Source: Siphonodentalium dalli
Lineage: Eukaryota; Mollusca; Scaphopoda; Gadilida; Siphonodentaliidae
DNA: 64,000 bases
NCBI GenBank assembly: GCA_032622095.1
Contig: CP136061.1
Location: 55,005,762 to 55,069,761, forward strand
Reading direction: 5' to 3'
In this document: positions 16,201 to 35,137 of the stretch, piece by piece
Numbering within the stretch: the first letter of the stretch is position 1
Layout of the letters: each line of letters opens with the position of its first letter
Program-made: the position numbers and the translations under genes
Notes under the pieces: generated by a model
Database searches by the model: none
What the model was told of the DNA's origin: nothing
What the model saw: the letters and a program-made list of their open reading frames with translations, nothing else

Positions 16201-19200
16201 TATAACTTACTAGTTTAAGACAATAGTAAATTTCGCAAATTAAAAAATTATCTTTATGTTATAAATCAAGTCTGCAAATAGCATTTCTGTCATTAGTGTC
16301 ACTAACTTCACCCTCTGGCGACCTCATTCTGCAAATGACAAGACACACTATTTGCAGGTTGGATTATATTTATCTTAGACTATTCACAATATTATAGGAT
16401 AGCACAGATAGCATAACAAATATATTACAGATCAAACTTCAAAATCAGGAAACAATGTCACCATGCTTTACAAATAACATGTTATTCTTTATGCACAGGT
16501 GTCTGTATAAATGGTTGAATACATCAAACTAGGTTAAGAAGATTTAGAAGGAAGAGATTCAGGGAACAAAATGACTTGATATCAGGGTAAACATGCAATG
16601 CAATCATGCTTTCTCGAATTTCTTCCAAAAAAAAAACACCCACCAAGAAGTAAGAAAGCATATGCTGCATTATGTGGAAGACGAGGAAGTGAGGGTTCAT
16701 GCTGAAGTTGCTATATCTTAGGTGTGCCACAATCAATTGTATAATCGATGAACCATTGATAAAGCTAATAAATGATTACCATTTCTGTCGTCGATTAATC
16801 TGTGTTATTTCGGACGTTGGAAAATGTCTGGTGTTATTGAATACCGTGTATGTTTTACACAGTTTAATCTACAACCGAGGGGTTAACAACCTTTGATCGC
16901 ATATCAAAGAGATTCTGACAATATGACTACTACTAATATGTTGCAAACAGTCAGCAGTATAAACAAAAATTTGACAATCACTATCTGTGCATGTTCAGTC
17001 CTTCCCAGGAGAAGATGCAATTGTTCCCACACCCATCTGTGCCCGTAATTTTCAAATGGCAGGTGCTAAAATCTGCTCCTATCAGTTCTGTCAAAATTGA
17101 CAGTGTGTACTTTAATTATTGAACCAATAAGGCAATATTTAAATATTGAGTATTTTTTATAGATCCTTTTCAGTATCAGTTTAATTAAGGTCATTTTTAA
17201 ATATAAGTGGGCATTTATGGTATCCCATAATGACACTTTGTCTGAGGGAAAAAAAAATATGAATATATCACAGGTGTATTTACACACGTATCCTGAACTG
17301 CGAGAGTAATTAGGCTGTGTTTTGCTCATGGAAAGAACTGCATGCTGAGCACTAATAATAATAAATCAGATTTCTACCACCAAAATACTTAAAACTACTA
17401 TTCAGAATAATGTCAGTGCACATATAACACGCAGTCTAAATAATACACAAGAGATTAAGATAGCCACTCAAACAGGTAGATACCAACAGATGAATGTTAG
17501 ACACAAAAGGACACCAGAGATGAATCACTATGTTTGACACACACTAAGCACTGGGGGACCTAAGATCTGACTCTACACCCTTCCCCTTTAAAGAACAATA
17601 TCAAACTTCAATAAATTTTATATGCCCCCTCGTGAGTTGCCTGTCAACAAAATTTCACAGTAAATACCCAATACATTCTCTTATATATGAGAGGCTCCCT
17701 ATGGGAGACTCACATATATCAGAGAATGCATTGGGACAGGGTTTTTGCAATATTTTGGGAAGCTCCAGTCATAGAAGGGTTAAATGCTGCCATAGATTAC
17801 TGGTTTCTTTTGGCATTTCTGTCATTGATAATCAAATAAATTGAAGTCTGTCACAATGGCAGGTACAAAAGAATTTCAGCCTGTCATTACAATTTTCAGT
17901 ATGACATGTTGACAGGCCAGTTATTTCAAAGTTTGTTTTTAATCATTGAAAAATTCCCAAACAAATACCCTCTGCCACCATGGTTGGATATTTTCCAAAA
18001 GGGGAATTGCAGTATAAAATTTTACAAAATTCAATTTTTTTTAATTTAAACCAATAGTTGGGTTTGCTGAGTGAGTACCTCAGTGCTCAATTTCTACACA
18101 AATGGAGGGCTTAGACCAATATAAATTAATTACTAGACTATCATCCAACTTTTTCAGCAATTTTGGGCACGTGGGCGAATTGGATTTTTTTATTTTCCTT
18201 TCTTGCTAACATAAATGATCATGATCAATTCTAGAAATTGAAACAGTATCCTACCTTATACAATACAACATGATTAAATTGCCCAATTTGATAAAAAATA
18301 AATAGACTGACTAATGGGTAATGGCACTGTACATTGAAGGTTAGGGAATGAGAAAACAAATTTACATCAAAATCATCCAACTATAAACAATTTTAGGGAA
18401 TCAAAAATAGGGTTGGGATGTGATGAGAATCTTGCATTTTTTATATTGGTCTTTTGGAGATTTTTATGACTTTATGTTAATATCTCTTGAATTATTTCTT
18501 GATTAATGGAGTGCATATTTAACCAAGGTTTTGCTGCTATTTGAACTTTCATAGAAATCAATCCTAACTTTTCATCTCTAAAATCTAAAAGAAAAGACCT
18601 GTTTTGAGAGGTTAACTGTATAGTGGACCAGATGAATGATAAATACACTATATCACATTATACCTTAGTTCCATGAAGCCTGCATGCAGCCTGTGCTTGG
18701 GATAGTAACTTCTCTTTGTACAATTTGGCCGCTCGACTGTGGTATTTCTGTTGTGAATCATTGGATGTACATCCATGTTGTCTGAAGAATGTAGTCTGTA
18801 GGAAGATAAACACATTACTAGTAAGTATATAAACCTACACACAATCACCTAACCCTTTCTTTATTAACACTCTGATAATGGGGGCAGCAGTGGTGCAGCA
18901 TTAAAGATCATGTGCCAGTGCATTCTCTTATATATGCTAGTCTCCCATAGGGAGCCTCACATATATAAGAGAATGCACTGGCTTACAAGGTCAAGTTAAA
19001 TATTGTTAGGCCAATGCATTCTCTTATATATGCGAGGCTCCCTATATATATGGGAGACTCACATATATAAGAGAATTCACTGGCTTACCAGGTCAATGTT
19101 AATATTGTTAGGCCAATGCATTCTCTTATATATACAAGGCTCACTATGGGAGACTCGAATTTATATAAGAGAATGCTCTGGCTTACAAGGTCAAGTTAAA

Positions 19201-22200
19201 TATTGTTAGGCCAATATATTCTCTTATATATGCAAGGCTCACTATGGGAGACTCGCATTTATATAAGAGAATGCATTGGTACAGGGTTTTCGCAAGATTT
19301 CAGGAAGCTACAGCCATAGAACGGTTAAGTGGATTAACCCATCAGTTATAAATGTACAGTTGTATACATTGGAATGGAATAATATTCATCAGGAAATAAA
19401 AGCAGACAACAGATAATAGAAAGTACACGATTCCAGATCATTGGTGGGAAATGTCAAGATAATAAGTTCAACAAACGATCTATGTTAGTTTGTTGAGTTT
19501 ATTACTATGAACATTTCTAAAGGGAACCACTCATAAATGGGTATTTAGTATAGAAAGGGTTAGTATATAAACCTGTATATAATCACTTAAAATCCATTTT
19601 CGATTGAATGATCTAGAACATTTCAGTGCCAAGTTGGCATGACGAAACATACATGTACCATAAAACAGAAAACTGTGTGATGTTAATCTGTAATAAAAAG
19701 CTTTTGACATTTTTCAAAATCCAATGACAAACAATATCAAGATTTCCCCAAAACATTTGAGATTAAAAAATTGGTAAAGCAAACTATGCAAAGTGAAACT
19801 GATAAGAGCAGCGTTCAGCTGAGTGTGCTGGGTTGGTCAGTTGCAATGACATGGTCTCTTATTTGCTTTCTATTGTTCAGAGAGGCGATTTGTGTTATAT
19901 CTAAGATGTGATAGCTCTTATAAATTAAATATTTGAATAAATGCAATATTGCAGATCAATCTATCTGTTACTGGCAAAACCCAACTTTTAAATCTTTATT
20001 CAGACAAAAAATTTCCTCTTCAAAGACCAAGCGGTCACCTTTGATCGACATACATGTATGGTATGCATTTGAGATTGTGCTGCATTGAAAATAACATCTC
20101 TCTATTGGATGCATTAGCGGATACAACGTAATGGATGTATTGCAGCGATATGAATGCCTTAGGTTATAAAAATAAAAAATATTCCGCTGATGGGCTGAAA
20201 AACATTAGGGTCCGTAGGCAGGTAAAACTTGTTTTTTTATATGTATTTTTATTTTTTTAATAATGCAGTCCCTCAGCCCTAACCCTCCAAATATCACCAC
20301 CCTATAATCTTAGGCAAGTAGTCTTAGATTATAATATTATATAGTATTTTCCATAAAAGCCTCAGTGGTTATTCTTATCAGTTGTAATGAGGCCCAGCCA
20401 CACATTGTTTAGCTTCGAAAATCTGCTACGGTAACCCTTTGTCTTGGCCCAGTTTGCTTCAGCAAAAGACTTTGGCATTGCTGATTGCCATAGCCAAATA
20501 TGAGGGCTGGAGGCCAGACACTTAGCATGCCTAAAGAGTAATTATTCAGAGGAAGGACTAAAATGTTCTATTTTTCTGTCATAAACAGGAACATCTAACA
20601 TAAAGTTCCAAAATTGGTCATCCCTTGTGCGACTATTTTATATAAGGTGGCCCATCTTTTAACAATTGCCATATAAATTTATAGATCTCAATAAATGTAC
20701 AGACCAGGGGGTTTGAAATAGGGTCAGTATAAATCAGAAACAAATGTCGTTTTTAGGCCTCAGTGGTGTTGCCAATATTCCAATTTCAATGCCACGTGCA
20801 ACATGAAATATAAAGGACAATTGTCTGAACACTCCTAATGAGATAGGAGAATGCTTATTTTCCTATGTTGATTCAAGAGTTTAATTAATTAAGACAAAAA
20901 TGAATCTCATCAAGGATTGCAGTCCACACCTTTTCTTAGCAAGAAGTTTATAAATGCTAAATATTGCCCTATAAAAATAGAATTTTAATCATAGTTTTAT
21001 AAATATATTTTGATTGAAACAATAATTAACCTCATGGGAGAATGTATATATTTAGTCAGATTTATAGATTGAAAAAAATGTGTACTAGTATATCAATAGC
21101 ACAAGATAACAGCTGCTAACTACATGTTGCCTAACTATAAGATGTACTTATAATAATAATCAGGATAAGAGCAACTGTGCACAGTGACGTTATTGTCTTT
21201 TTTAATATACATTGTACATTACATTATGACAAATTGTAACAAAAAGAAATAGAGATATAATCATATAAAAAAAATGAGATTGGAGAATTTTATGTATCTG
21301 AGATTGAATTGGGAGTGTTGGCATATAACAATTAATAACTTACTGCATTTAAAAATTAAAAAATTAAAAAACATTCTAAATACAACTAGCAAAAAAAATG
21401 TATATAAGATAATGATCCCATATGAAAATCAAAGCAAACAAATAGCTAAATGGGAGGATAAACTAAACAAAACATATAGCATGGAATGGTGGAAAGAAGT
21501 TTTTAAATGTCCCTTTTACAATGTTACAGATACAAAACTTAAATGGTTTCAATATCGAATTAACACACATATACTATGTACAAATAAATTTTTGAAAATA
21601 ATAGGCATCCAAGATGAAGATACATGTACATTCTGTAAAAACAAAATCGAAACAATACTTCATATCTTCTGGGAATGTCATGTCATAACAAAATTTTGGC
21701 GGACTGTAGAGATGTGGGTATACAATCTAACAAGCCAAAGAATTAAACTAAATAATATAATAGCTATTTTTAGCAACACACCAGAGAAAAACCTTGAACC
21801 GTGGATACAATTTTTACTTCTATTTACCAGATACCATATATATAGGTCAAAATTAAATGAACACATACCAAATTATCTATGCTTGCAAAGAGAACTAAAG
21901 GCATACTACCTTGCTGAACATATATGTTATTATAACCAAGGCCGATATAAACAATTCACAGAAAGATGGTCATACTTCAAATATTTAATTGAATAATCTA
22001 TTATTCAGCCAATAGTTATAATAATAACAAGGTTTAAAATGGAACTATTCCAACGAAATACATATCCAATCTGCCTGCAAACAAATTAGAACGTTGTTTT
22101 TCTTTATCTATTTAAGTCTTTGATAGAAAATTACATACATATGGTTAACATATATTACATATATTCAAAGAAACAACACATTTCTTGATAATTTTAAGTT

Positions 22201-25200
22201 CAAGCCAGCCCAATCCCCTCCCCTCCCCCCAAAGAAAAAAAAAATCCCAGACAATATGAGACAATGATGCTTTAATTAATTTAGTGTAACAAGTTTATTG
22301 AGATAATGTATCTACAATGTGTACTGTATAAATGATTTTGTCTGAATAAAAATATATTTAAAAAAAAAAAATAACTTACTGCATTAGCATTTCCTCCAAC
22401 TTGCATGGCACGAAGCTGAAGCCATGACCAGTTTATGTCAAGATTGGTGGATTTGATAAATGTGAGATGAACACCAAGATGTCTGTGATTGGCTGAACAG
22501 TCGATACACAAGAAGGTGCCATAGGTTATAGTCGCCCACGTCGGATTCATGCTCCCACAGTCGAAACATTGCTACAAAATATGCAGTAAATATATGAGTT
22601 CAATGAACTATCAGGGGTACATGTATTTCTATTAAATCAATTGGGCCTGAACAATCTTCCTGGAATTATATGAGGGGATTTGAGATCAAGGAGATTCAAA
22701 ATGCGACTCCAAAATAGTGTTTTCGTTAACCCTTTCTATACTAAATAGATTCTTACATTCAGTTATAAAGTATACATTGGAATGGTCTATTATTCATTTG
22801 GAGGGATGTTAAGAATATATGAGCCGATGACAGCCAGACGAAATGATAATACAAGTGCAGAAGAATTCATATTAATTGGTCGGAAATGTTTAGATAATAA
22901 ATTCAACAAAATGACCTATTTCCTAAGGGAACTACTCGTTAATGAGTATTTAGTACAGAAAGGGTTAAATATTTGTTTGGCCTTAATAAATTAAGTACCG
23001 TAATCACAATATCTTGACAGTCTGCCGTCAGTACTTTGATTCTTGTTGTAAACATTCAATTGAACTGAATTAATCACACATACCGTCCTATTATCGAAGT
23101 CAGACAGTAAAGGAAATGTATCTTGTACTACAGAAGGGTGAAAATTTCAGAAAAATTTAATAATAGTGCAGGGCGGAACAGAAGTGTGGTGGAAACATAA
23201 CAAATAACTTGAACAATAATTTTGTAGACTTGAGTGTAAAGCAAGTTATCGCAATTGACATACTTAAATTGTTACATGCACAGGAAAATGTGAACCCTGT
23301 TGTCTACATGTCCCATGTGTGCAACGTCTGGAATAAAAAATCAACATTGATTTGTAATTAATTCAAAATAAACTAATTGTGTAGCATTTCCTAATCAAAT
23401 TTAGAGCTGAGCCATCAATCTTTTTAAAATGTGCAGACCTGAATAAGCATCTTGCAGTGCATATTTTTCTCACCAAATCAATAAACGTACAGGTTCCTTT
23501 ATTTGGCATGCAAGAGTACCAAGCAACTAGGTAGAATTGGTGACATTTCTATGATGGGACAACGCGATTACTGAACATTTCAAATACAGGGATGAATACA
23601 ATTTGGGTGGTAAAAAAATTGCAGTCAAATACAAACTGGATCGGAGGCAACAATCATGCCATATTTGTAAATTAACTACAGTTATGTCCTAAATAATCAA
23701 CCCCTAAACCACAGCAGAATTATGGGAAATTTTTCAGGATTTAGTCGGAAATATGGCTTGATGCCATCCATCGGAAAGCTCTCACCGAGAGCTTTCCGAT
23801 GAATGGCATCAAGCCATATTTCCGACTAAATCCTGAAAAATTTCCCATAATTCTGCTGTGGTTAAAGGGTCATATCCTTCGGCCATTACTGTATATGTAC
23901 ATTACATAGAGTAGAGTCCTTCATTTTATCCACCAGTCTTTAATAAAGTAACACGTATTATCAGCCCTCTTAATTCAGATTGTTTGGCTTCGGCAATCCG
24001 CTACGGCAACAGTATGCTGTGGCCCAGTTTGCTTCAGCAAATTGCTTCGGCAATGCTGATTGCCGTAGCCAATTATGAAGGCTGTATTATACATGTAATA
24101 CATAACACCTTACTTACCACCATCCAAACTCATCCCCTATTGGACATACCAAGGATATTAATCACCCCATTTGAATCAATCATTATAATATAGAAGTCAT
24201 ATGAATAAGATAGTAGTAGATGTGGCAAATAAATAGCTCAAGTATGAGATTTTAGTATTGAATTACAATCGGACACCACTTGTCGGTATTGCTCCCGTCA
24301 TGCCAATTTAGGGGAGGTACTCGCCGCTTGCCTAGGGTCCCTCACATATGCAGCTTACATTACATAAGGAAAAACACACACAATGCTCCGTTTTATTAAA
24401 TTATAGATTTACCAATCAGTGACAATGTATCATTTGTCTGCATGCATGGATCTCAAATATGGGTGATAATTATGAGTTATGCTGTAGCATTATTCAGCCT
24501 GATACATCCAAGATCTTTGAAATAACCCCACTGACTCCCACAGATCACATGCTGTGACGTTGGAAATTGGAATGTTCCGCTGGGTGTAGGGCTGGGCGAT
24601 ATTGGCCCCAAAAAATATCGCGATATTATGGTGACAACATCGCGATACACGATATTATCGCGATATTATTTTGGTATATTACAATTGGTAAGTACAATGT
24701 ACAATATATGCAGTATTTCATGAATAAAGTTTGCACAATAATACATCCCTACGTTTTATTTACAATTTGTGGGTCATGAGAGGTCGAGTAAATGTGTATT
24801 GAACAATTATCAGTAACATCACAGTATACATGTATATAATGACCACTCGTCTGCAACAATTGACAGTTTGTCGACGGAGAAATAATAACTTTGAAACAAA
24901 GGGATATAATCATATAACACGGCCCACGTGCGTTTTCGCATACATTTTTTAGAGTTATATCCCTTTGACCATAGCGCTCAACACCATGCACACATTAAGC
25001 ACCGCATTCGGTTTCAAATTTCCATTTTATTAATTCGTGAGGAATTGGTTGTTTGTGAGACTATTTATCAGTGGTATTTGGTAGTTGGTAGCACCGTGGG
25101 ACTTCAATGTCCATATACGGCAGCCCTGGAAATTAGCGTCGACAATGCCACAATGGGCAGTGCCGAGGCAAAAGCCGACGTGAAATGAATTTGCGTCGGC

Positions 25201-28200
25201 ATTTTTTTAGCTGAGGAAAATAAATATAGACAATCATGTTCAATTAGTTTGTGAATTTGACATTTGTTGAAGCGATAGCAATGCCATGATCCGTACGGCA
25301 CATGACCACAAAATCATTTTACTCGCAATTTGCACACATTGAGACGATCAAATCTGACATCGTAATCCGTCTCCAAGCAACCGGTTACTGTTGATAGAGC
25401 AAGCTGCCCAACTTGAAATGAGGTCATTGTGCCAGTCGCATGCGCGCGACATACCAATCTCACAGTGTAGCCAACTGATGCTACTATATAGTATCTCTTT
25501 GATGTTTCTGACGAAGCATATCCAACTTGACAGGCACGTGCTCCGATGTTTTAAAACGTTTTCGACTGCGTATTTCCGGGAAGTTTGCGACTATTATACT
25601 TACTCTAACTTCGCTGTTTGTTGGGACCATATGATGGGTTTCAACCTACATGGAGAATATTACAACTTGGGACGGTATTACGATATTTTTATTTCAGACG
25701 ATATTGTTGACAATATCAAAATTAAAACCGGGTATACCCGATATATCGTCATACCGCCCAGCACTAGCTGGGTGTGAAATATTATATTAAATGCTTTTAT
25801 TGAATGCTGGCAAATAAGGTGTATTACTTTCAGCCCTTTTAATTCAGATTGTTTGGCTTCGGCAATCTGCTACGGCAACCCTTTATCGTGGCCCAGTTTG
25901 CTTCAGCAAATGGCTTCGGCATTGCCGATTGCCGTAGCCAATTATGAGGGCTGATTACTTTTAAAGTATTTAACTTACTAGTATAGAATTATTATTCACT
26001 TCCCGGTTTAATTATTATAAATCATAAATTTCAATCCAAGTTTATGAACGTGATCAATCATTCCCATTCGATAACACCCCATGAAATAACGAGCTGTCCC
26101 ATGGTTTCAGTCAGTTAAAAATAGTGCAGAATGATAAAATTTGCAATATAATATTGGGCTGCATTTTCAATAAATGATAACAACATGGGATGAATCCACA
26201 ATTATAAAGGGCGATGCATAAACTTGCACATGCCAATCATAATCATTGAAACAGACTAGTCATTTTTAAGTTGTTGATCAGTGCATGCATGGCGCTATAA
26301 GTCTTGAAATACATTCGCCGGGTGACCAAATGAACCAAAGCCACAACACAGAATAGGAGCTATTCCAGCCCAATTTACAACAATGCCCCACATATTTCCT
26401 AACACTTACTCACTGATTGTGTTTCTGTTTTCAACGAAATACGGTGTAAAGAAACCAAGTAGTTTCTTCATATCCCGATAAAGGTAAACCACAATGTACC
26501 CGGTAATGGGTCGGTATAACTTGTAACCGCGATAATACCGATAATATTCAAAGTTTACAGATTATGAAAAAAATTACAGTAAAGAAAATCTTACCAATTA
26601 CATTCAAGTTGAATCAGACAACAACTATTTCTACAACAATTCTATCTCACGCAGAGCATGACTAGTGTGCATTACTGAATACATAAACAGCCTTAAAATC
26701 CGACTATAATCATAATCATGATTCTCATTTTGATCTACTAGTCGGACCCTTCTAAGAGTTCCCGTTTCTATGCCCATATATGACGTATAACATGGGCCAT
26801 GTGGCATCGCAGTTTTGAGTGTGGCATCGCAGTTTTGAGTATCCAACTCCTCGTTTCAGAACGTTCAAACGGAAAGCACGTGAACTATATAATCTCCCGT
26901 TTTGCCCGTGAGTCTCCCAATTTGATGTCTTAAAACCGGCTCTCTTGCAACCTCCATATAATCTCACGGTTTGGGCAAAATTTATACAAAATTGTCGCCG
27001 GTAACCAGGAATTAAATAGGAAAGTGTCGTTCGTAAGTCTCGCTAACGAGATGTCGGGTGTATTCTATTGTCTCTCTGAATTCTGAATAGGCGCCTCATG
27101 TCTCCGCGGGGGGGGGGGGGGGGGGGGGGGTATTAGAATCCAATCAGTTACTCAGTTGACTTTACCAGCTTGACTTGTCATGAATTATGTTTCGAATATC
27201 ATTGAAGCCATTTTGTTGCCATCATTACTCTAGTATTACACTAGTCCAACAAATTAGACTATTCGGGTTAAGATATATTTTAATATTTGGACATTTACGA
27301 TTATCTTAACCCTTCTTAATTAGTTTTATTTGTATCATTAGACGTGAACAGTGAGTTAAAGGGGCATGTCCTTGCCAATCGAATTATCGGGTTCTACGTG
27401 ATCAAAGTTTTCACGTCTTTTGTTGGACAATGAGGAGTAAGGTAACATAAATGTCAAAATATTAAAATATACCTGAATCCGAATCGTCTAATTTGTTGGA
27501 CTAATATTACACATGCCACAGTGTCGTGAGTGAGAAGTTATCACTGGTCAATTGCTTCACATCGAACTAGACAGTGTTCAGTTGGCAGTGACACTTCATG
27601 TCTTTGATGATCAACATAAAAGGAACCACGCCTACATGTGCATACATTGGGTTCAGTTCAGGTCATGGAGTTCACCATCCGTGCATGACTGATGGCAGTG
27701 GCATTGTTAAAGGAACAATGCAATAAGGCTTTAAGAAGTTAATATGTGTTAACTGTTACAGATTACGTGATAATATGGCCGTGCAATGGCACTGCTGTCA
27801 TGATAGCACATACTAGTAGGTAGTGCTATTTCCCCGACTAATCGACTAGCAGATTTCGGGATCGACTAATTTAATAATCGCGTCGACTAGTCGATTAATT
27901 GTTTCAACACAACATGAATCAAATAATCAATGACGAAGTCATTTATTTCTTGAACAGAAGCAAACTGGCCCTACATCAAGGATTGCCGTTGCGGATTGCC
28001 GAAGCCAAAAATTCGGAATTAAGAAGGCTGTTTGGCTAGGGCTTTCAAAGTTTTAGTGTCAATGACTGAGTCTGACGTGATGGGGTCGTTGTTGTAACAC
28101 TAACGGTCTTATTTGGATACAAATAATGTAATTCACAATTAGCAATAGGTCGATATCCTTTCCGTAATCATTACAATCCAATATCATATCATGATCAATT

Positions 28201-28911
28201 ATCACACCATTACTCCAGGATGAATAATGCTCAGCCGTAGTTTCATTGGTCTTATTCGTGTGAGTAGTAATTAAAAGTTTCACTGTGGCTGGATTTCGCG
28301 GGGATTTCTTGAGTTTGACTTCACAAGAGCTGGACCAACTGTGATTTGAGTTTGAATGGCTTAAAGCCAAACGAGGATCAAAATGAGAATTACCTCTGGC
28401 GACCAGTCGATTCCTTAAAATAATTATGGTTTCAACACTAGTCTACTCTAGATTGCCATACTGCCCATACTGGCCATAGCCTAGGCTGGCCAATTAATGA
28501 ATTATGACGAGGGCTGTGCCTGTAGTGTAAATTGTAATCCGTTATCGTAAACATAAACATTGGGAGTGTGTATCTAAATTCTAAACTGATACACTGCCAT
28601 TGTCCGATTGAGCTGCAACACATAACATTAGTGATGTTGGTCTGACATACAATGATTTGACAGAAACTATCGTTGCCAACTTGTTTTGTTTACTTTCGCA
28701 TTTTTCGGCTTTTTCCACGGTGGCGAGGCGTGACACATGGATGGGAATAAACGTTTAACTAATGTGTTTTATTAGAAAATAATTAATTTTCTCGCATTCT
28801 CTTGTCATCTCCGTTATATTTCCAACAAAAAAATGTTACCTTATTCGTTGGATTTGACCGTAGTCTCTTGAAAATCGTGTTAATATCTGGCTTCGAAGGT
28901 AGAACTTCCAT
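4051..28911 (-). CDS. ARFGAP2/3: ArfGAP2/3-type ADP-ribosylation factor GTPase-activating protein, 10 exons, 3' end outside window
   Basis: The protein stimulates GTP hydrolysis on Arf1 at Golgi/COPI membranes (family knowledge). The exons join without phase conflict into 463 codons: 28840-28911, 22380-22571, 18664-18795, 15496-15531, 10346-10529, 8469-8596, 6570-6712, 5862-5999, 5201-5377, 4051-4239. Residues about 15-140 form the ArfGAP domain: a zinc finger CFDC-x16-CIDC (Cys 26, 29, 46, 49), then the catalytic arginine at about residue 54 in HRHLGVHL, then FFRQHG. Downstream, [27 protein letters not shown] and FSGPPKYKDSPFS match the ArfGAP2/3 branch rather than ArfGAP1 or SMAP. Vertebrate members have about 515-520 residues, so the last 60-100 are missing; I found no matching exon in 1-4050. 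Introns total more than 23 kb and are full of MITEs. Paralogue 2 and paralogue 3 cannot be separated; many invertebrates have one gene. Confidence 0.95.
4681..5119. mobile_element. Two-hairpin MITE of the CAAGCCTGCAAATAG family (ArfGAP intron 9)
   Basis: Ends CAAGCCTGCAAATAGTGTG and its inverse; flanks AACATTGC and AAAATTGC agree at 7 of 8 bases. Two internal palindromes are built from TTTGCAGAATGAGGTCCCC-like arms. Same family as 15693-15844. Confidence 0.7.
5201..5377 (-). CDS. ARFGAP2/3: ArfGAP exon 9
   Basis: One base completes an Arg codon, followed by 58 codons beginning [18 protein letters not shown] and ending MFSGPP. This matches the SHSVLSEMQVIEQETP and ASGPPKYKDNP landmarks of the family. 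The donor AA|GTATGT leaves a Lys codon completed in exon 10. Confidence 0.94.
5862..5999 (-). CDS. ARFGAP2/3: ArfGAP exon 8
   Basis: Encodes [20 protein letters not shown] and then [13 protein letters not shown], both hallmark ArfGAP2/3 segments. The polypyrimidine tract of its acceptor is a pure (CT)n microsatellite (plus strand 6002-6021). An AG seven bases downstream would cause an immediate stop and is therefore unlikely to be used. Donor GTAAAT, phase 2. Confidence 0.95.
6002..6021. repeat. (GA)n microsatellite forming a polypyrimidine tract
   Basis: The dinucleotide run ends directly at the exon 8 acceptor; on the minus strand it is (CT)n followed by CAG|GGCTCAG. Length variation could change splicing strength (inference). 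Confidence 0.85.
6189..6206. repeat. C homopolymer
   Basis: A run of C interrupted once by T, in ArfGAP intron 7, within an otherwise unrecognised stretch. Confidence 0.8.
6570..6712 (-). CDS. ARFGAP2/3: ArfGAP exon 7
   Basis: Starts [20 protein letters not shown], the conserved GLGAQKV/F-x-E-I-E region, and ends in an acidic EEEEKN run. Forty-seven codons plus two bases. The donor GTAAGT was chosen over the GT two bases upstream because only it restores the frame into exon 8. Confidence 0.93.
6834..7405 (+). mobile_element. Diverged, truncated Helitron-like element
   Basis: Begins TGAAGGTGTCAATAACACTG after an A, matching the constant 5' end of the family described at 30857-35137. The core 'AAATCCAAGATGGCTGCTGG' unit has diverged to a different spacing. 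No 3' CTAA end is found. Confidence 0.6.
8469..8596 (-). CDS. ARFGAP2/3: ArfGAP exon 6
   Basis: Two bases complete the Asp codon, then 42 codons: [20 protein letters not shown] followed by a lysine-rich [12 protein letters not shown], which corresponds to the IIGKKKPAAAKKG stretch of the family. Donor GTAAGT, phase 0. Confidence 0.93.
8655..8800. repeat. Tandem duplication, about 75 bp
   Basis: Two imperfect copies of a segment containing GGCAGA-AGCTGCTAACTTT and ATTCACCAG, in intron 5 just outside exon 6. Confidence 0.55.
9434..10243. mobile_element. 810-bp TIR element inserted in a CAAGCC-family MITE
   Basis: Terminal inverted repeats CAGACTTTCATTTTT are flanked by AATGCT on both sides (9428-9433, 10244-10249), a 6-bp duplication. 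The split host MITE is readable on either side (about 9345-9433 and 10244-10320). The interior has higher GC and repeated GCGATCGC-like words. No transposase; the 135-codon open frame in it has no recognisable domain. Confidence 0.75.
10346..10529 (-). CDS. ARFGAP2/3: ArfGAP exon 5
   Basis: This exon has 61 codons plus one base. It encodes a hydrophilic linker that includes [11 protein letters not shown], equivalent to the KDSDFFxEHT motif of vertebrate ArfGAP2. Acceptor TTTTACAG; donor GTATTT in phase 1. The split codon G|AT (Asp) is completed by exon 6. Confidence 0.93.
10909..11310. mobile_element. Two-hairpin MITE, CAAGCC family (intron 4)
   Basis: Starts CAAGACTGCAAATAGTGTGT and contains two palindromes around GAATGAGGTCCCCAGAGGGT-type arms, as in 4681-5119. 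Outer boundaries are uncertain at the right end. Confidence 0.65.
11856..12292. mobile_element. TTAA-flanked MITE with two cruciform hairpins
   Basis: TIR CCCTTTACCCAACA at both ends, TTAA on each side (11852-11855, 12293-12296). Inside are two near-perfect palindromes (about 11919-11985 and 12200-12268) of the form CCAATGCATTCTCTTATATA ... inverse. TTAA targeting is typical of piggyBac-type transposition; assignment to that superfamily is inference. Confidence 0.8.
12676..12917. mobile_element. Related TTAA-type MITE, degraded
   Basis: CCCTTTCATGACTGG at the left and TCATGAAAGAGTTAA at the right, with one full and one partial copy of the ATTCTCTTATAT hairpin. The left target has become TTAC. 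Confidence 0.6.
13046..13224. mobile_element. Fold-back MITE, TACAGTRATGCCC family
   Basis: An almost perfect palindrome: TACAGTGATGCCC ... GGATTTAGTCGGAAATATGG ... inverse ... GGGCATTACTGTA. Other copies are at 23677-23893, 44816-44971, 45190-45741, 46194-46303 and 57905-58040. Confidence 0.8.
13610..14655. mobile_element. TTAA-type MITE (CCCTTTCTATACTAAAT family) split by another element
   Basis: The left end CCCTTCTATACTAAATGGAT and right end GAGTATTTATTATTAGAAATTGTTAA match the intact copy at 22730-22964. The middle is occupied by the element at about 13730-14472. Confidence 0.6.
13730..14472. mobile_element. TATCCCCCGCC element with about four tandem units
   Basis: TATCCCCCGCC at the left and GGCGGGGGATA at the right form the TIR. 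The interior repeats a unit of 150-175 bp containing GGTTTGCGAACTCGTTCTAG, TTTGAAATCCGTTGACATTT and GTGACGTCGTC. Confidence 0.65.
15214..15444. mobile_element. TTAA-flanked hairpin MITE (intron 4)
   Basis: CCCTTTCATGATGAG ... TCATGGAAGAG between TTAA duplications (15210-15213, 15445-15448), with two ATTCTCTTATATATGCGAG hairpins. It ends only 51 bases downstream of microexon 4 (in the direction of transcription). Confidence 0.75.
15496..15531 (-). CDS. ARFGAP2/3: ArfGAP exon 4, a 36-nt microexon
   Basis: Twelve codons ([12 protein letters not shown]) lie between acceptor CTGCCAG and donor GTCAGT. Both ends are phase 0, so the protein stays in frame with or without it. The residues suit the HGTDLWID-like stretch that follows the ArfGAP domain in ArfGAP2/3. 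Support is splice-site geometry and family position only; RNA evidence is lacking. Confidence 0.72.
15693..15844. mobile_element. One-hairpin hAT MITE, 152 bp, with intact target duplication
   Basis: TIR CAAGCCTTGAAATAGTGTGT on both ends and CTAGATTC duplicated exactly at 15685-15692 and 15845-15852. The 8-bp duplication identifies the CAAGCC family as hAT-mobilised. Confidence 0.85.
16265..16364. mobile_element. Deleted copy of the CAAGCC-family MITE
   Basis: Left arm CAAGTCTGCAAATAG and right arm GACACACTATTTGCAGGTTG survive; the loop and part of the left arm are lost. Confidence 0.6.
16365..17640. other. Intron 3 interior, nothing recognised
   Basis: AT-rich, no exon on either strand with matching splice sites, no complete repeat family identified. 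Confidence 0.4.
17641..17779. mobile_element. 5'-truncated TTAA-type hairpin MITE
   Basis: Contains the ATTCTCTTATATATGAGAGG hairpin and the right end AGCTCCAGTCATAGAAGGG before TTAA; the left TIR is missing. Confidence 0.55.
18664..18795 (-). CDS. ARFGAP2/3: ArfGAP exon 3
   Basis: This exon has 44 codons, phase 0 to phase 0. It begins [13 protein letters not shown] and continues through [14 protein letters not shown], the end of the ArfGAP domain. Acceptor CCTACAG, donor GTATAA. The residues after NANA match the family order exactly (A/T-FFRQHG). Confidence 0.96.
18850..19325. mobile_element. TTAA-type MITE with four hairpins in tandem
   Basis: Four successive palindromes (about 18915-18981, 19012-19083, 19110-19180, 19207-19279) are separated by GGTCAAGTTAAATATTGTTA spacers. 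Other copies have one or two hairpins, so this one has expanded by duplicating hairpin plus spacer. It begins about 55 bp upstream of exon 3 (in the direction of transcription). Confidence 0.7.
19330..19565. mobile_element. TTAA-type MITE copy (CTATACTAAAT family), degraded
   Basis: Retains CAGTTATAAATGTACA, the AATAAGTTCAACAAAC hairpin and the right end TATTTAGTATAGAAAGGGTTA. Confidence 0.5.
19930..21333. other. Intron 2 interior, mostly unrecognised
   Basis: Holds one decayed copy (20385-20515) of the CAGCCCTTTTAATTCAG hAT MITE. Otherwise AT-rich sequence with no supported exon. Confidence 0.4.
21335..21349 (-). other. Duplicated exon 2 splice donor (decoy)
   Basis: On the minus strand this reads AATGCA|GTAAGTTAT, identical over 15 bases to the true junction at 22371-22385: six exon bases plus nine intron bases. 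It lies 1,036 bp downstream of the used donor. Confidence 0.85.
21350..22370 (+). mobile_element. 5'-truncated LINE, antisense in ArfGAP intron 2
   Basis: The element encodes the C-terminal end of a non-LTR retrotransposon polyprotein (stop at 21994-21996), with [20 protein letters not shown] and a [18 protein letters not shown] zinc-binding motif typical of the region after the reverse transcriptase in CR1/L2-like LINEs. A 370-bp 3' UTR and a poly(A) tract (22360-22370) follow. ATAACTTACTGCATT occurs exactly at 21335-21349 and 22371-22385, a 15-bp target-site duplication. The open frame continues left of 21350 to an ATG at 21274, but by this reading those codons are host sequence. The target was the exon 2 splice donor, so the junction now exists twice. 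Confidence 0.9.
22380..22571 (-). CDS. ARFGAP2/3: ArfGAP exon 2 (zinc finger and arginine finger)
   Basis: This exon has 64 codons, phase 0 to phase 0. It carries the complete C4 zinc finger and the invariant catalytic arginine, and ends QVGGNANA. The acceptor is TTTTGTAG and the donor is a perfect GTAAGT. A LINE poly(A) tract abuts the intron only nine bases past this donor; the donor itself is duplicated at the far end of the LINE (see the LINE entry). Confidence 0.97.
22730..22964. mobile_element. Intact TTAA-flanked MITE, 235 bp (intron 1)
   Basis: Inverted ends CCCTTTCTATACTAAAT and ATTTAGTACAGAAAGGG lie between TTAA at 22726-22729 and 22965-22968. Confidence 0.75.
23677..23893. mobile_element. 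Fold-back MITE with about 95-bp near-perfect arms
   Basis: The arms meet at CTCTCACCGAGAG (about 23780-23792). This is the best-preserved full copy of the TACAGTRATGCCC family. Confidence 0.85.
23962..24084. mobile_element. hAT MITE, CAGCCCTYTTAATTCAG family, 123 bp
   Basis: CAGCCCTCTTAATTCAG ... CAATTATGAAGGCTG, with TATTAT directly on both sides. Near-identical to 25831-25953. Confidence 0.75.
24587..25766. mobile_element. hAT element, 1180 bp, nested
   Basis: TAGGGCTGGGCGATAT ... ATACCGCCCAGCACTA ends, with GCTGGGTG duplicated exactly (24579-24586, 25767-25774). No intact transposase. The 128-codon open frame inside has no recognisable domain. Confidence 0.85.
25831..25953. mobile_element. 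hAT MITE, 123 bp, nested
   Basis: CAGCCCTTTTAATTCAG ... AATTATGAGGGCTG with ATTACTTT duplicated exactly (25823-25830, 25954-25961). Confidence 0.88.
27108..27130. repeat. G homopolymer, about 23 bases
   Basis: Uninterrupted G run in intron 1. The exact length is prone to sequencing error. Confidence 0.8.
27242..27503. mobile_element. MITE with TAGTCCAACAAATTAGAC ends
   Basis: Long inverted ends (about 55 bp, imperfect), with TATTACAC on both sides (27234-27241, 27505-27512) and one extra A at the right junction. Probably hAT. Confidence 0.7.
28034..28839. other. Intron 1, promoter-proximal part, nothing recognised
   Basis: A half copy of the CAGCCC hAT MITE lies at about 27975-28033. The remainder shows no supported exon or repeat. 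Confidence 0.35.
28840..28911 (-). CDS. ARFGAP2/3: ArfGAP exon 1 (start codon)
   Basis: This exon gives 24 codons beginning [19 protein letters not shown], equivalent to the N-terminal helix of ArfGAP2/3. The ATG context is AAG-ATG-G, a good Kozak match. It ends in phase 0 at donor GTAACA. The 5' UTR boundary is not defined by the sequence. Confidence 0.92.
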
Positions 28912-29040
28912 CTTGCTGACGTTCCTTAAAGTCACATGACCAAAGATCCGGATAAAACGTATCGCAGCCAGTCATTGGTCAAAAAGGAAAGGCGTCTTCT
29001 AAAAGATCACATATTGATTTATATCGTACTCACTTGTATT
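28912..29040 (-). promoter_or_regulatory. Probable ArfGAP 5' UTR and promoter
   Basis: The sequence immediately upstream of the ATG contains a GTCACATGAC E-box-like word (28931-28941) and an inverted CCAAT box (ATTGG, 28974-28978). There is no clear TATA box. Position relative to exon 1 is the main argument. A hAT MITE begins at 29082, so the compact promoter probably lies between these points. Confidence 0.4.
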
Positions 29041-30856: not shown

Positions 30857-33800
30857 TGAAAGTGTCAATGACACTGTAGCTCAACTTGGAAAGGGAATAA
30901 TTTAATGTATTACAGTCAATGGAGCGATTAGGAATGTGGAAAGTTGAATGTCTAATACTAGTTTATAGACATGAAGAGAAAAGTAAAATCCAAGATGGCT
31001 GCTGGCGGCCATGTTTTCGGCCGAATGACCCCAAAATGATTGTATCCCATCTACATGTCATCGTTAACATCCATGAGAAATTTTATGACGATCAGACTAA
31101 AGGTACGACCTGTAGCCTATGCTAAAGGATTTAGTCATACAAAGAGTAAAATCCAAGATGGCTGCTGGCTAGTGCTGGGCGGTATTTCGGTATACCGATT
31201 ATAATCGGTAAGATTTTCAATACCGTTACCGTTACCGTCATTCTTTTCCATAATCGGTAAACCTTGAAGACGGTATTATCGCGGTTACATGTCATACAGG
31301 CACATTACGGAGTATATTGTGGTTTTCCTTTGTCGGGATACAAAGAAATTACTTCGTTTCTATACACAGTATTTCATCGAAATCATAATTAAGAGGTAGC
31401 GAGTTTGTGTCAGGAGACAGCGTTGCTGTAAATTGGGCTGAGGTAGCTACTAGTGTTGCGGATTCTGTTTACCAAGTCATCCGCGAAATTGGCGCGAATA
31501 TATTTCAAGATTTACGTTGTGTACCCCATGCACGTGCTCATCGACAATTTTAAAATGACTAGTCCATTTCAATGATTGGCGTGTGCAAGTTTATGCAACG
31601 CCCTTTATGTGTATTCATCCCATGTTGCATTATCTTTTAGTTGGAAAAAACTGTTCAATCTTCACTCATGTCACTTCTTTCCCCATGTCATTTCCAAACA
31701 AAATGTATTCCTTCGCTACCTGGGACAAAACCCAGCCCAACATTATATTGCAAGGTATGATTGCATCATTCTGCGCTATTTTTTATCGACCGAATTTATG
31801 GGGCAGCTCATTATTTCAAGGGTGTTATCGAGTGGGAATAAATGATCACATTCATAAACCGGGATTTAAAAGTATGATTATAATAATTCAACGGGAAGTC
31901 AATAATAGTTCTAGAAGTTAAATACTTTGGAAGTAATAAACTTTATTTCCCGGCATTTAATAAAAGCATTGTACTTATTCTTAAGTTATTCACACCCGGC
32001 GGAACATTCCAATATCAACATCACAGCACGTGCTCTGCAAGTCGGCACTGTCAGTGGGGGATTGTTTCAAAGCTCTTGGGTGTATCCGGCTTCGCTGAAT
32101 GATGCTTGCATTAAGTTGCATAAATCGCAATTATTACGTGTATTTAAGATCAGCTCATGAATCCATGCTTGCAGATAATGATACATTCATTGATTGCAAT
32201 CCATAATTTAATAAAACGGAGCGTACATTTCCTTATTTTATGTAATCTGTAGCGATTAGATTTTCCTCCATAAACAGTCGATCTGTGCACCAAACGAATG
32301 CTACTAAACGGGGGTTTTAAGGAATTAGTTTAAATAATCGGTAATACCGTATACCGCGGTATTATTTTAGGATTACCGCGGTATTTTTATGCTTAAATAC
32401 CGCCCAGCACTACTGCTGGCGGCCATGTTTTTTGGCCGAATGACACCAAAATGACTCGTTCCCATCTACATGTCATTATTAACATCTATGACAAATTTTA
32501 TGACGATCAGACTAAAGGTACGACCTGTAGCCCATGCTAAAGAATTTAGTCATACAAAGAGTAAAATCCAATATTAACAACCATGACAAATTTCATGATG
32601 ATCAGACGAACAGTACGACCTGTGGCCCATGCTAATGGATTAAATTTTGAAATCCAAGATGGCCACTGGCGGCCATGTTTTTTGTCCGAATGACCCCAAA
32701 ATGACTCGTTCCCATTTACATTCCAATTTCAACAGCCATGACAAATTTTATGATGATCAGACTAAATGTACGACCTGTAGCCCGTGCTAAAGGATTTAGT
32801 CATACAAAGAGTAAAATCAAAGATGGCTGCTGGCGGCCATGTTTTTCTGCCGAATGACCCCAAAATTACTCGTTCCCATTTACATTCCAATTTCAACAGC
32901 CATGACAAATTTTATGATGATCAGACTAAAGGTACGACCTGTAGCCCGTGCTAAAGGATTTAGTCATACAAAGAGTAAAATCAAAGAGGGCTGCTGGCGG
33001 CCATGTTTTTCTGCCGAATGACCCCAAAATGACTCGTTCCCATCTACATGTCATTATTAACATTCACGACAAATTTTATGATGATCAGACTAAAGGTACA
33101 ACCTGTAGCCCGTGCTAAAGGATTTAGTCATACAAAGAGTAAAATCCAAGATGGCTGCTGGCGACCATGTTTTTTGGCCGAATGACCCCAAAATTACTCG
33201 TTCCCATCTACATGTCATTATTAACATTCTTGACAAATTTTATGATGATCAGACGAACAGTACGACCTGTGGCCCGTGCTAATGGATTAAATTTTGAAAT
33301 CCAAGATGGCCACTGGCGGCCATGTTTATTGGCCGAATGACCCCAAAATTACTCGTTCCCATCTACATTCCAATTTCAACAGCCATGACAAATTTTATGA
33401 TGATCAGACTAAAGGTACGGCCTGTAGCCCGTGCTAAAGGATTTAGTCATACAAAGAGTAAAATCCAAGATGGCTGCTGGCGGCCATGTTTTTTGGCCGA
33501 TTGTCCCCAAAATGACTCGTTCCCATCTACATGTCATTATTAACATTCTTGACAAATTTTATGATGATCAGACTAAAAGTAGGACCTGTAGCCCGTGCTA
33601 AAGGATTTAGTCATACAAAGAGTAAAATCCAAGATGGCTGCTGGCGGCCATGTTTTTTGGCCGAATGACCCCAAAATGACTCGTTCCCATCTACATGTCA
33701 ATATTAACATCCATGACAAATTTGATGATGATCAGACTAAAGGTACGACCTGTAGCCCGTGCTAAAGAATTTAGTCATACAAAGAGTAAAATCCAAGAAG

Positions 33801-35137
33801 GCTGCTGGCCGCCATGTTTTTTGGCCGAATGACCCCAAAATTACTCGTTCCCATCTACATGTCAATATTAACATCCATGACAAATTTCATGTTGATCAGA
33901 CGAACAGTACGACCTGTGGCCCGTGCTAATGGATTGAATTTTGAAATCCAAGATGGCCGCTGGCGGCCATGTTTTTTGTCCGAATGACCCCAAAATGACT
34001 CGTTCCCATCTACATTCCAATTTCAACAGCCATGACAAATTTTATGATGATCGGACTAAAGGTACGACCTGTAGCCCGTGCTAAAGGATTTAGTCATACA
34101 AAGAGTAAAATCCAAGATGGCTGCTGGCGGCCATGTTTTTTGGCCGAATGACCCCAAAATCACTCGTTCCCATCTACATGTCAATATTAACATCCATGAC
34201 AAATTTGATGATGATCAGACTAAAGGTACGACCTGTAGCCTGTGCTAAAGAATTTAGTCATACAAAGAGTAAAATCAAAGAAGGCTGCTGGCCGCCATGT
34301 TTTTTGGCCGAATGACCCCAAAATTACTCGTTCCCATCTACATGTCAATATTAACATCCATGACAAATTTCATGATGATCAGACGAACAGTACGACCTCT
34401 GGCCCGTGCTAATGGATTCAATTTTGAAATCCAAGATGGCCGCTGGCGGCCATGTTTTTTGTCCGAATGACCCCAAAATGACTCGTTCCCATCTACATTC
34501 CAATTTCAACAGCCATGACAAATTTTATGATGATCGGACTAAAGGTACGACCTGTAGCCCGTGCTAAAGGATTTAGTCATACAAAGAGTGAAATCAAAGA
34601 TGCCTGCTGGCGGCCATGTTTTTTGGCCGAATGACCCCAAAATGACTCGTTCCCATCTACATGTCATTATTAACATTCATGACAAATTTTATGATGATCA
34701 GACTAAAAGTACGACCTGTAGCCCGTGCTAAAGAATTTAGTCATACAAAGAGTAAAATCCAAGATGGCTGCTGGCGGCCATGTTTTTGGGCTGAATGACC
34801 CCAAAATTACTCGTTCCCATCTACATGTCAATATTAACATCCATGACAAATTTCATGACGATCAGACAAACAGTACGCCCTGTAGCCCGTGCTAATGGAT
34901 TGAATTTTGAAATGCAAGATGGCCACTGGCGGCCATGTTTTTTTACCGAATGACCCCAAAATTAATCATTCTGGTCTAAATGTTGATGTCAACAGCTATG
35001 ACAAATTTCATAATGATCCGACCAAAGGTACGACCTGTAGACTGCATTGTTGACGCCTTACGTACACACGCACACACGGACGACGGACGACAAAGCCATG
35101 GCAATAGCTCAAACTTTACAAAGTAAAGTTGAGCTAA
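30857..35137 (+). mobile_element. Helitron-like element with a 164-bp tandem core (about 17 units), 4.3 kb
   Basis: The 5' end is A|TGAAAGTGTCAATGACAC; the 3' end is a hairpin (CTTTACAAAGTAAAG) followed by GAGCTAA|T. The core repeats a 164-bp unit (spacing measured between 33465 and 33629) in two alternating variants: one with ACTAAAGGTACGACCTGTAG, one with ACGAACAGTACGACCTGTGG. There is no flanking duplication, and an empty-site paralogue (35890-36070) shows clean insertion between A and T. The hairpin-CTAA end and AT target are Helitron traits; the tandem core recalls bivalve pearl/HINE elements. Open frames across the units are an artefact of the repeat, not proteins. No Rep/helicase is present. 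Confidence 0.75.
31170..32412. mobile_element. hAT element, 1243 bp, inside the Helitron-like array
   Basis: TAGTGCTGGGCGGTATTT ... AAATACCGCCCAGCACTA ends; CTGCTGGC duplicated exactly (31162-31169, 32413-32420) within one array unit. It therefore inserted after array formation. Transposase is absent or decayed. Confidence 0.9.

Follow-up and report, generated by a model that had tools for sequence, protein, structure and literature searches.

In a 64,000-nucleotide stretch of the genome of the scaphopod Siphonodentalium dalli (contig CP136061.1, positions 55,005,762 to 55,069,761, hereafter the window), a 5'-truncated LINE sits on the splice donor of the second coding exon of an ARFGAP2/3-type gene, and the whole donor is found at both ends of the element. 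The best explanation as a whole, with a probability of about 0.82, is that the LINE inserted onto the donor and duplicated it, that the insertion is probably heterozygous, and that its predicted effect on splicing is nearly neutral.

The interrupted gene and the LINE copy

When joined, three coding exons on the minus strand, at 28911-28840, 22571-22380 and 18795-18664, encode 132 amino acids in an open frame that matches the Pfam ArfGap profile over positions 2-115 of 117 (E 8.3e-32). The exon numbers used here count coding exons only and leave non-coding 5' exons aside. Exon 1 encodes MEVLPSK...NPTNK, and the region around it (28600-29000) has a single match in the genome; exon 2, with 64 codons, carries the Pfam ArfGap match, and exon 3 (TTFFRQHG...) continues the joined open frame. 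Regarding the type of gene, the best PDB matches of exon 2 are 2crw (ARFGAP3), 2p57 (ZNF289) and 5nzs (ARFGAP2). In addition, both copies of the locus have open minus-strand frames with ISSDQYFG and ISSADLFG, located beyond the left edge of the window, and C-terminal ISS motifs are typical of ARFGAP2/3. The gene is thus classified as ARFGAP2/3-type (a Glo3-type ArfGAP), having a zinc-finger domain nearest to ARFGAP2/3 as well as the ISS-motif frames. Elsewhere in the genome, two ArfGap-domain matches with equal scores lie in opposite orientation 320 kb apart, at C3:123400500-123400634 and C3:123720379-123720513.

The exact 15-mer ATAACTTACTGCATT occurs at 21335-21349 and 22371-22385, with 1,036 bp between the starts. 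Read on the minus strand, it is AATGCA followed by GTAAGTTAT, that is, the last six bases of exon 2 and the first nine of the intron, spanning the donor from -6 to +9, and both copies contain the donor entire. The proximal copy is joined to exon 2 and holds the native donor (GT at 22379-22378), while the distal one holds the duplicated donor (GT at 21343-21342). The repeat reaches 16 bp if the ambiguous A at 21334 and 22370 is counted. When up to two mismatches are allowed, the window still yields only these two matches; in a shuffle control at the same tolerance, two or more were reached in 9 of 100 shuffles (mean 0.46), so the weight of the repeat lies in its exactness and its position. The first-pass annotation had described a 15-bp target-site duplication across the exon 2/intron 2 junction, with the donor present twice, 1,036 bp apart, and both statements are borne out by these positions and by the empty site presented below, the length being perhaps 16 bp.

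The element between the repeats is read on the plus strand, antisense to the gene. LINE sequence occupies 21362-22359 and comprises the end of a coding frame with a zinc-knuckle region, its stop at 21994-21996 and the 3' UTR, followed by a poly(A) tract at 22360-22371 whose last base is common to the target-site duplication. The window copy matches zf-RVT with E 1.8e-6 and a score of 29, above the Pfam cut-off of 27.5; in a longer copy, L012, the same domain scores 26.3, slightly below that cut-off, and an open frame of 710 amino acids contains RVT_1 (E 2.2e-30). A genome search with the LINE gave at least 43 matches, itself included, with scoring limited to 40 of 202 candidates. The nearest copy, on C5, is 99.5% identical, and this identity, together with the open frame of L012, makes the family look young.

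Concerning the 5' end, the best 7 of the 42 other copies share coding sequence that runs 5' of 21362 and is absent from the window copy; thus, the LINE in the window is 5'-truncated, and the 12 bp at 21350-21361, TAAAAATTAAAA, are filler. These bases are covered by none of the 42 other matches listed, and in all of the best 7 the sequence at this position differs from TAAAAATTAAAA. An antisense, 5'-truncated LINE had been proposed beforehand with its start at 21350: orientation and truncation hold, and the start moves to 21362, after the filler. It had also been supposed that a coding frame continuing upstream in other copies would count against this reading; the frame does continue there, with different DNA, and this is what shows the truncation. 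The filler possibly arose by slippage of the reverse transcriptase on the adjacent AATTAAAA.

Among three other short copies, L030 has a target-site duplication of 11 bp and L027 and L029 have none; the 5' flanks of the latter two are themselves LINE sequence, so these copies look internally deleted and are no test of duplication. In two further copies, L028 and C3:97252081-97253569, the LINE sequence appears to be broken by inserts, of about 420 and 480 bp respectively, with overlaps of 6 and 4 bases at the breaks, as if another element had inserted.

The features of the insertion are consistent with target-primed reverse transcription, by which a poly(A)-tailed LINE would have entered the exon 2 donor. 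The first nick would have fallen on the gene strand after GTAAGTTATT, a site that reads TATT/AA if the repeat has 16 bp, one base off TTTT/AA. The second nick may have lain in exon 2, at a distance of about 15-16 bases, and repair would then have copied the whole donor, from -6 to +9, to both ends, leaving the LINE 5'-truncated with its 12-bp filler.

Predicted consequences for splicing

When donor 22379 is joined to exon 3, the frame stays open and the ArfGAP domain is kept. When donor 21343 is used, the exon is lengthened by 1,036 nt and runs into a stop after 32 codons; the three-exon version has 20 in-frame stops. The spliceosome would be expected to use 22379, aided by the U12 run next to it, so that the LINE would be removed within intron 2 and the insertion would be close to neutral. 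The gene has probably been left working. The gene-strand run has 12 U (22371-22360), occupying intron positions +9 to +20, with its first U inside the repeat; the first-pass annotation had placed it correctly after the working donor, at a length of about 11.

This run may favour the exon-attached donor 22379 through TIA-type proteins, by analogy with human Alu exons. There, a U tract between two donors promotes the upstream one via TIA proteins, even against a stronger downstream donor, and more so when it is closer (PMC2766253). However, the same study reports that depletion of TIA proteins by siRNA gave no donor shift, which goes against the simple reading (PMC2766253). Both systems have two competing donors and a U tract just past the upstream one. 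The tract of the Alu exon lies 18 nt from a weak donor, whereas here it begins 8 nt after a donor whose rival has the same sequence, and a similar effect would be a prediction from the DNA. ViennaRNA duplexes with the 5' end of U1 fell into an uninformative pairing register, and their energies are left out of account.

The second donor, at 21343, would then remain in reserve, and splicing from it would introduce a premature stop into the mRNA. It is conceivable, if unlikely, that this site is in use, either by splicing from 21343 or through a LINE-derived cassette exon, and that it lowers the ARFGAP output of this allele in the manner of a poison exon. The distal donor is an identical copy from -6 to +9, and a cassette exon of 289 nt containing a stop can be predicted on the minus strand at 21344-21632, bounded by an acceptor AG at 21634-21633 and by the duplicated donor. 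On a crude, home-made scale, this acceptor scores 3.7, a value that 14 of the 3,077 AGs on the minus strand of the window reach, against 3.2 for the acceptor of exon 3. Moreover, all five cassettes tried carry stops, so that such exons would lower output and not add protein. Nevertheless, the acceptor score is home-made, one such site per 1 kb is not improbable, and the published U-tract effect favours the upstream donor (PMC2766253). Exonization of the LINE in frame is rejected for the five cassettes tried, given their stops.

Somewhat less probable is that the insertion damages the allele, by skipping of exon 2 or by premature polyadenylation in the antisense LINE, and persists only as a recessive heterozygous variant. 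The LINE does contain AATAAA (22299) and ATTAAA (22276 and 21989) on the gene strand; however, the donor was copied intact and is still joined to its exon, and antisense LINEs are harmless in many introns. In support of damage, LINE-1 insertions in or near MET exon 14 affect its splicing and cause skipping in tumours (PMC12934576). Those insertions are somatic, whereas in the present case the entire donor is duplicated and exon 2 is predicted to be spliced normally.

The LINE-free copy and the empty site

About 69 kb are present twice around a gap of 100 N, at C1:54889646-54959002 and C1:54964426-55033865, the second copy reaching position 28104 of the window. This is the single 100-N gap in the 184 kb examined; it is sited between the two copies, and the homology of the downstream copy begins at the first base after it. 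The copies were compared over 23 alignment pieces, leaving out alignments off the 71.0-75.5-kb diagonal, those of 90% identity or less or of 150 bases or less, and those whose start fell short of an earlier alignment's end by more than 400 bases. Together, the pieces amount to 61,696 aligned columns, of which 831 are mismatched (1.35%). Ten differences in length exceed 200 bp, this LINE and nine others. At L017 (C1:54948609-54949325), the LINE-free copy has a 42-bp-period array and about 1 kb more than the window copy at 16214-16285. Further along the window, at 32567-35040, about 14 units of some 164 bp each form a tandem array, and related units occur at other places in the window.

Exon 1 is missing from the LINE-free copy, whose contig continues beyond the homology with other sequence and then ends at the gap. 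The last 5.1 kb of this upstream contig have no counterpart in the window, which speaks against a simple overlap. A 2,001-base piece of them, taken from outside the final 2.6 kb, has 52 genomic matches, itself included, so that the stretch is repetitive at least in part; the piece is read as an element on one haplotype only. Overlap that begins at a contig end, with allele-like divergence, is what two haplotypes kept in the same assembly usually look like, and retained haplotypes are a known assembly problem. From the arrangement of these sequences, the LINE-free copy is very probably the other haplotype and not a tandem gene. It follows that the insertion is probably heterozygous, and the LINE is probably a young insertion.

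The alternative, that about 74 kb were truly duplicated in tandem, with the assembly gap at the junction, and that the LINE later entered the downstream copy alone, is improbable. It would account for collinear, near-identical copies on one scaffold, each of which has exons 2 and 3 along with both ISS-motif frames, as well as for homology that ends 5.1 kb short of the end of the upstream contig. However, the second copy begins with the very base that follows the gap, the first lacks exon 1 and passes beyond the homology into other sequence, repeated where it was searched, before the gap, and the pattern is the one usual for two haplotypes kept in an assembly. In addition, exon 2 is identical in both copies: the interval 22371-22573, exon 2 with the repeat, occurs twice in the genome with 100% identity over 203 bp. 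If the LINE-free copy is the other haplotype, as preferred here, gene counts in the 69-kb region may be doubled, and "two ARFGAP genes" may be one.

Within the LINE-free copy, a near-identical locus 73.8 kb away, L001 (C1:54954357), has one 15-mer and no LINE. When the LINE flanks are joined with a single 15-mer and compared with it, 415 columns align with no gaps and 8 mismatches, all of which fall 36-81 bases to the left of the repeat, with none inside it or to its right. Thus, the repeat is directly proved to be a target-site duplication. The first-pass annotation had taken a 15-mer locus without the LINE as something that would refute the duplication; this was worded backwards, as L001 is just such a locus and is the empty site that proves it. 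That the two 15-mers coincide by chance has a negligible probability: the genome of 2.23 Gb has 8 copies of ATAACTTACTGCATT, no more than the 8 (3+5) of a reversed control, but two exact copies abutting both ends of one LINE by chance are implausible, and the empty site, with exactly one copy at the predicted place, rules it out.

The LINE-free copy already has the donor of intron 2 and exon 3. Intron 2 therefore predates the insertion, which rules out that the element is an introner.

Relation to known systems and meaning

The insertion resembles L1-type insertions in its poly(A) tail, its target-site duplication of 15-16 bp, its 5' truncation and the extra bases at its 5' junction. The likeness also includes the RVT_1 domain of the longer copy. 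The putative nick site, TATT/AA if the repeat has 16 bp, would differ by one base from the L1-type TTTT/AA, a departure that counts against the explanation given here. Unlike usual L1-type insertions, the duplication covers a whole splice donor. In kind, the event is ordinary for a LINE; what is unusual is the place where it landed.

Literature searches for a target-site duplication that contains a splice site gave few papers, which need not mean that no such case has been published. In maize, Ds insertions reportedly include cases with splice sites inside the duplication. A related situation is that of introners, mobile elements whose target-site duplication carries a splice site and whose host gene can still be spliced (PMC9860276). 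The present insertion has in common with them a mobile-element target-site duplication that carries a splice site; in contrast, no intron was created here, and the element is a LINE and not a member of an intron-making family.

A wider and rather speculative proposal, which we consider doubtful, is that the target-site duplication acts as a built-in repair for LINE insertions on donors: the donor would be kept on its exon, the antisense poly(A) would supply a U tract favouring that donor, and the spare donor might seed a LINE-derived (poison) exon. With an empty allele that is probably heterozygous, those three effects would be measurable in one animal.

The locus is a natural experiment, with a donor duplicated letter for letter, a U tract after one of the copies and an uninterrupted version in the same assembly. 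What gives it value is that the same animal probably carries an empty allele as well. If the LINE-free version is the other allele, allele-specific RNA would test the choice between identical donors, and also whether the poly(A) of a LINE protects the gene that it hits. The locus also illustrates why an insertion on a splice site need not harm the gene.
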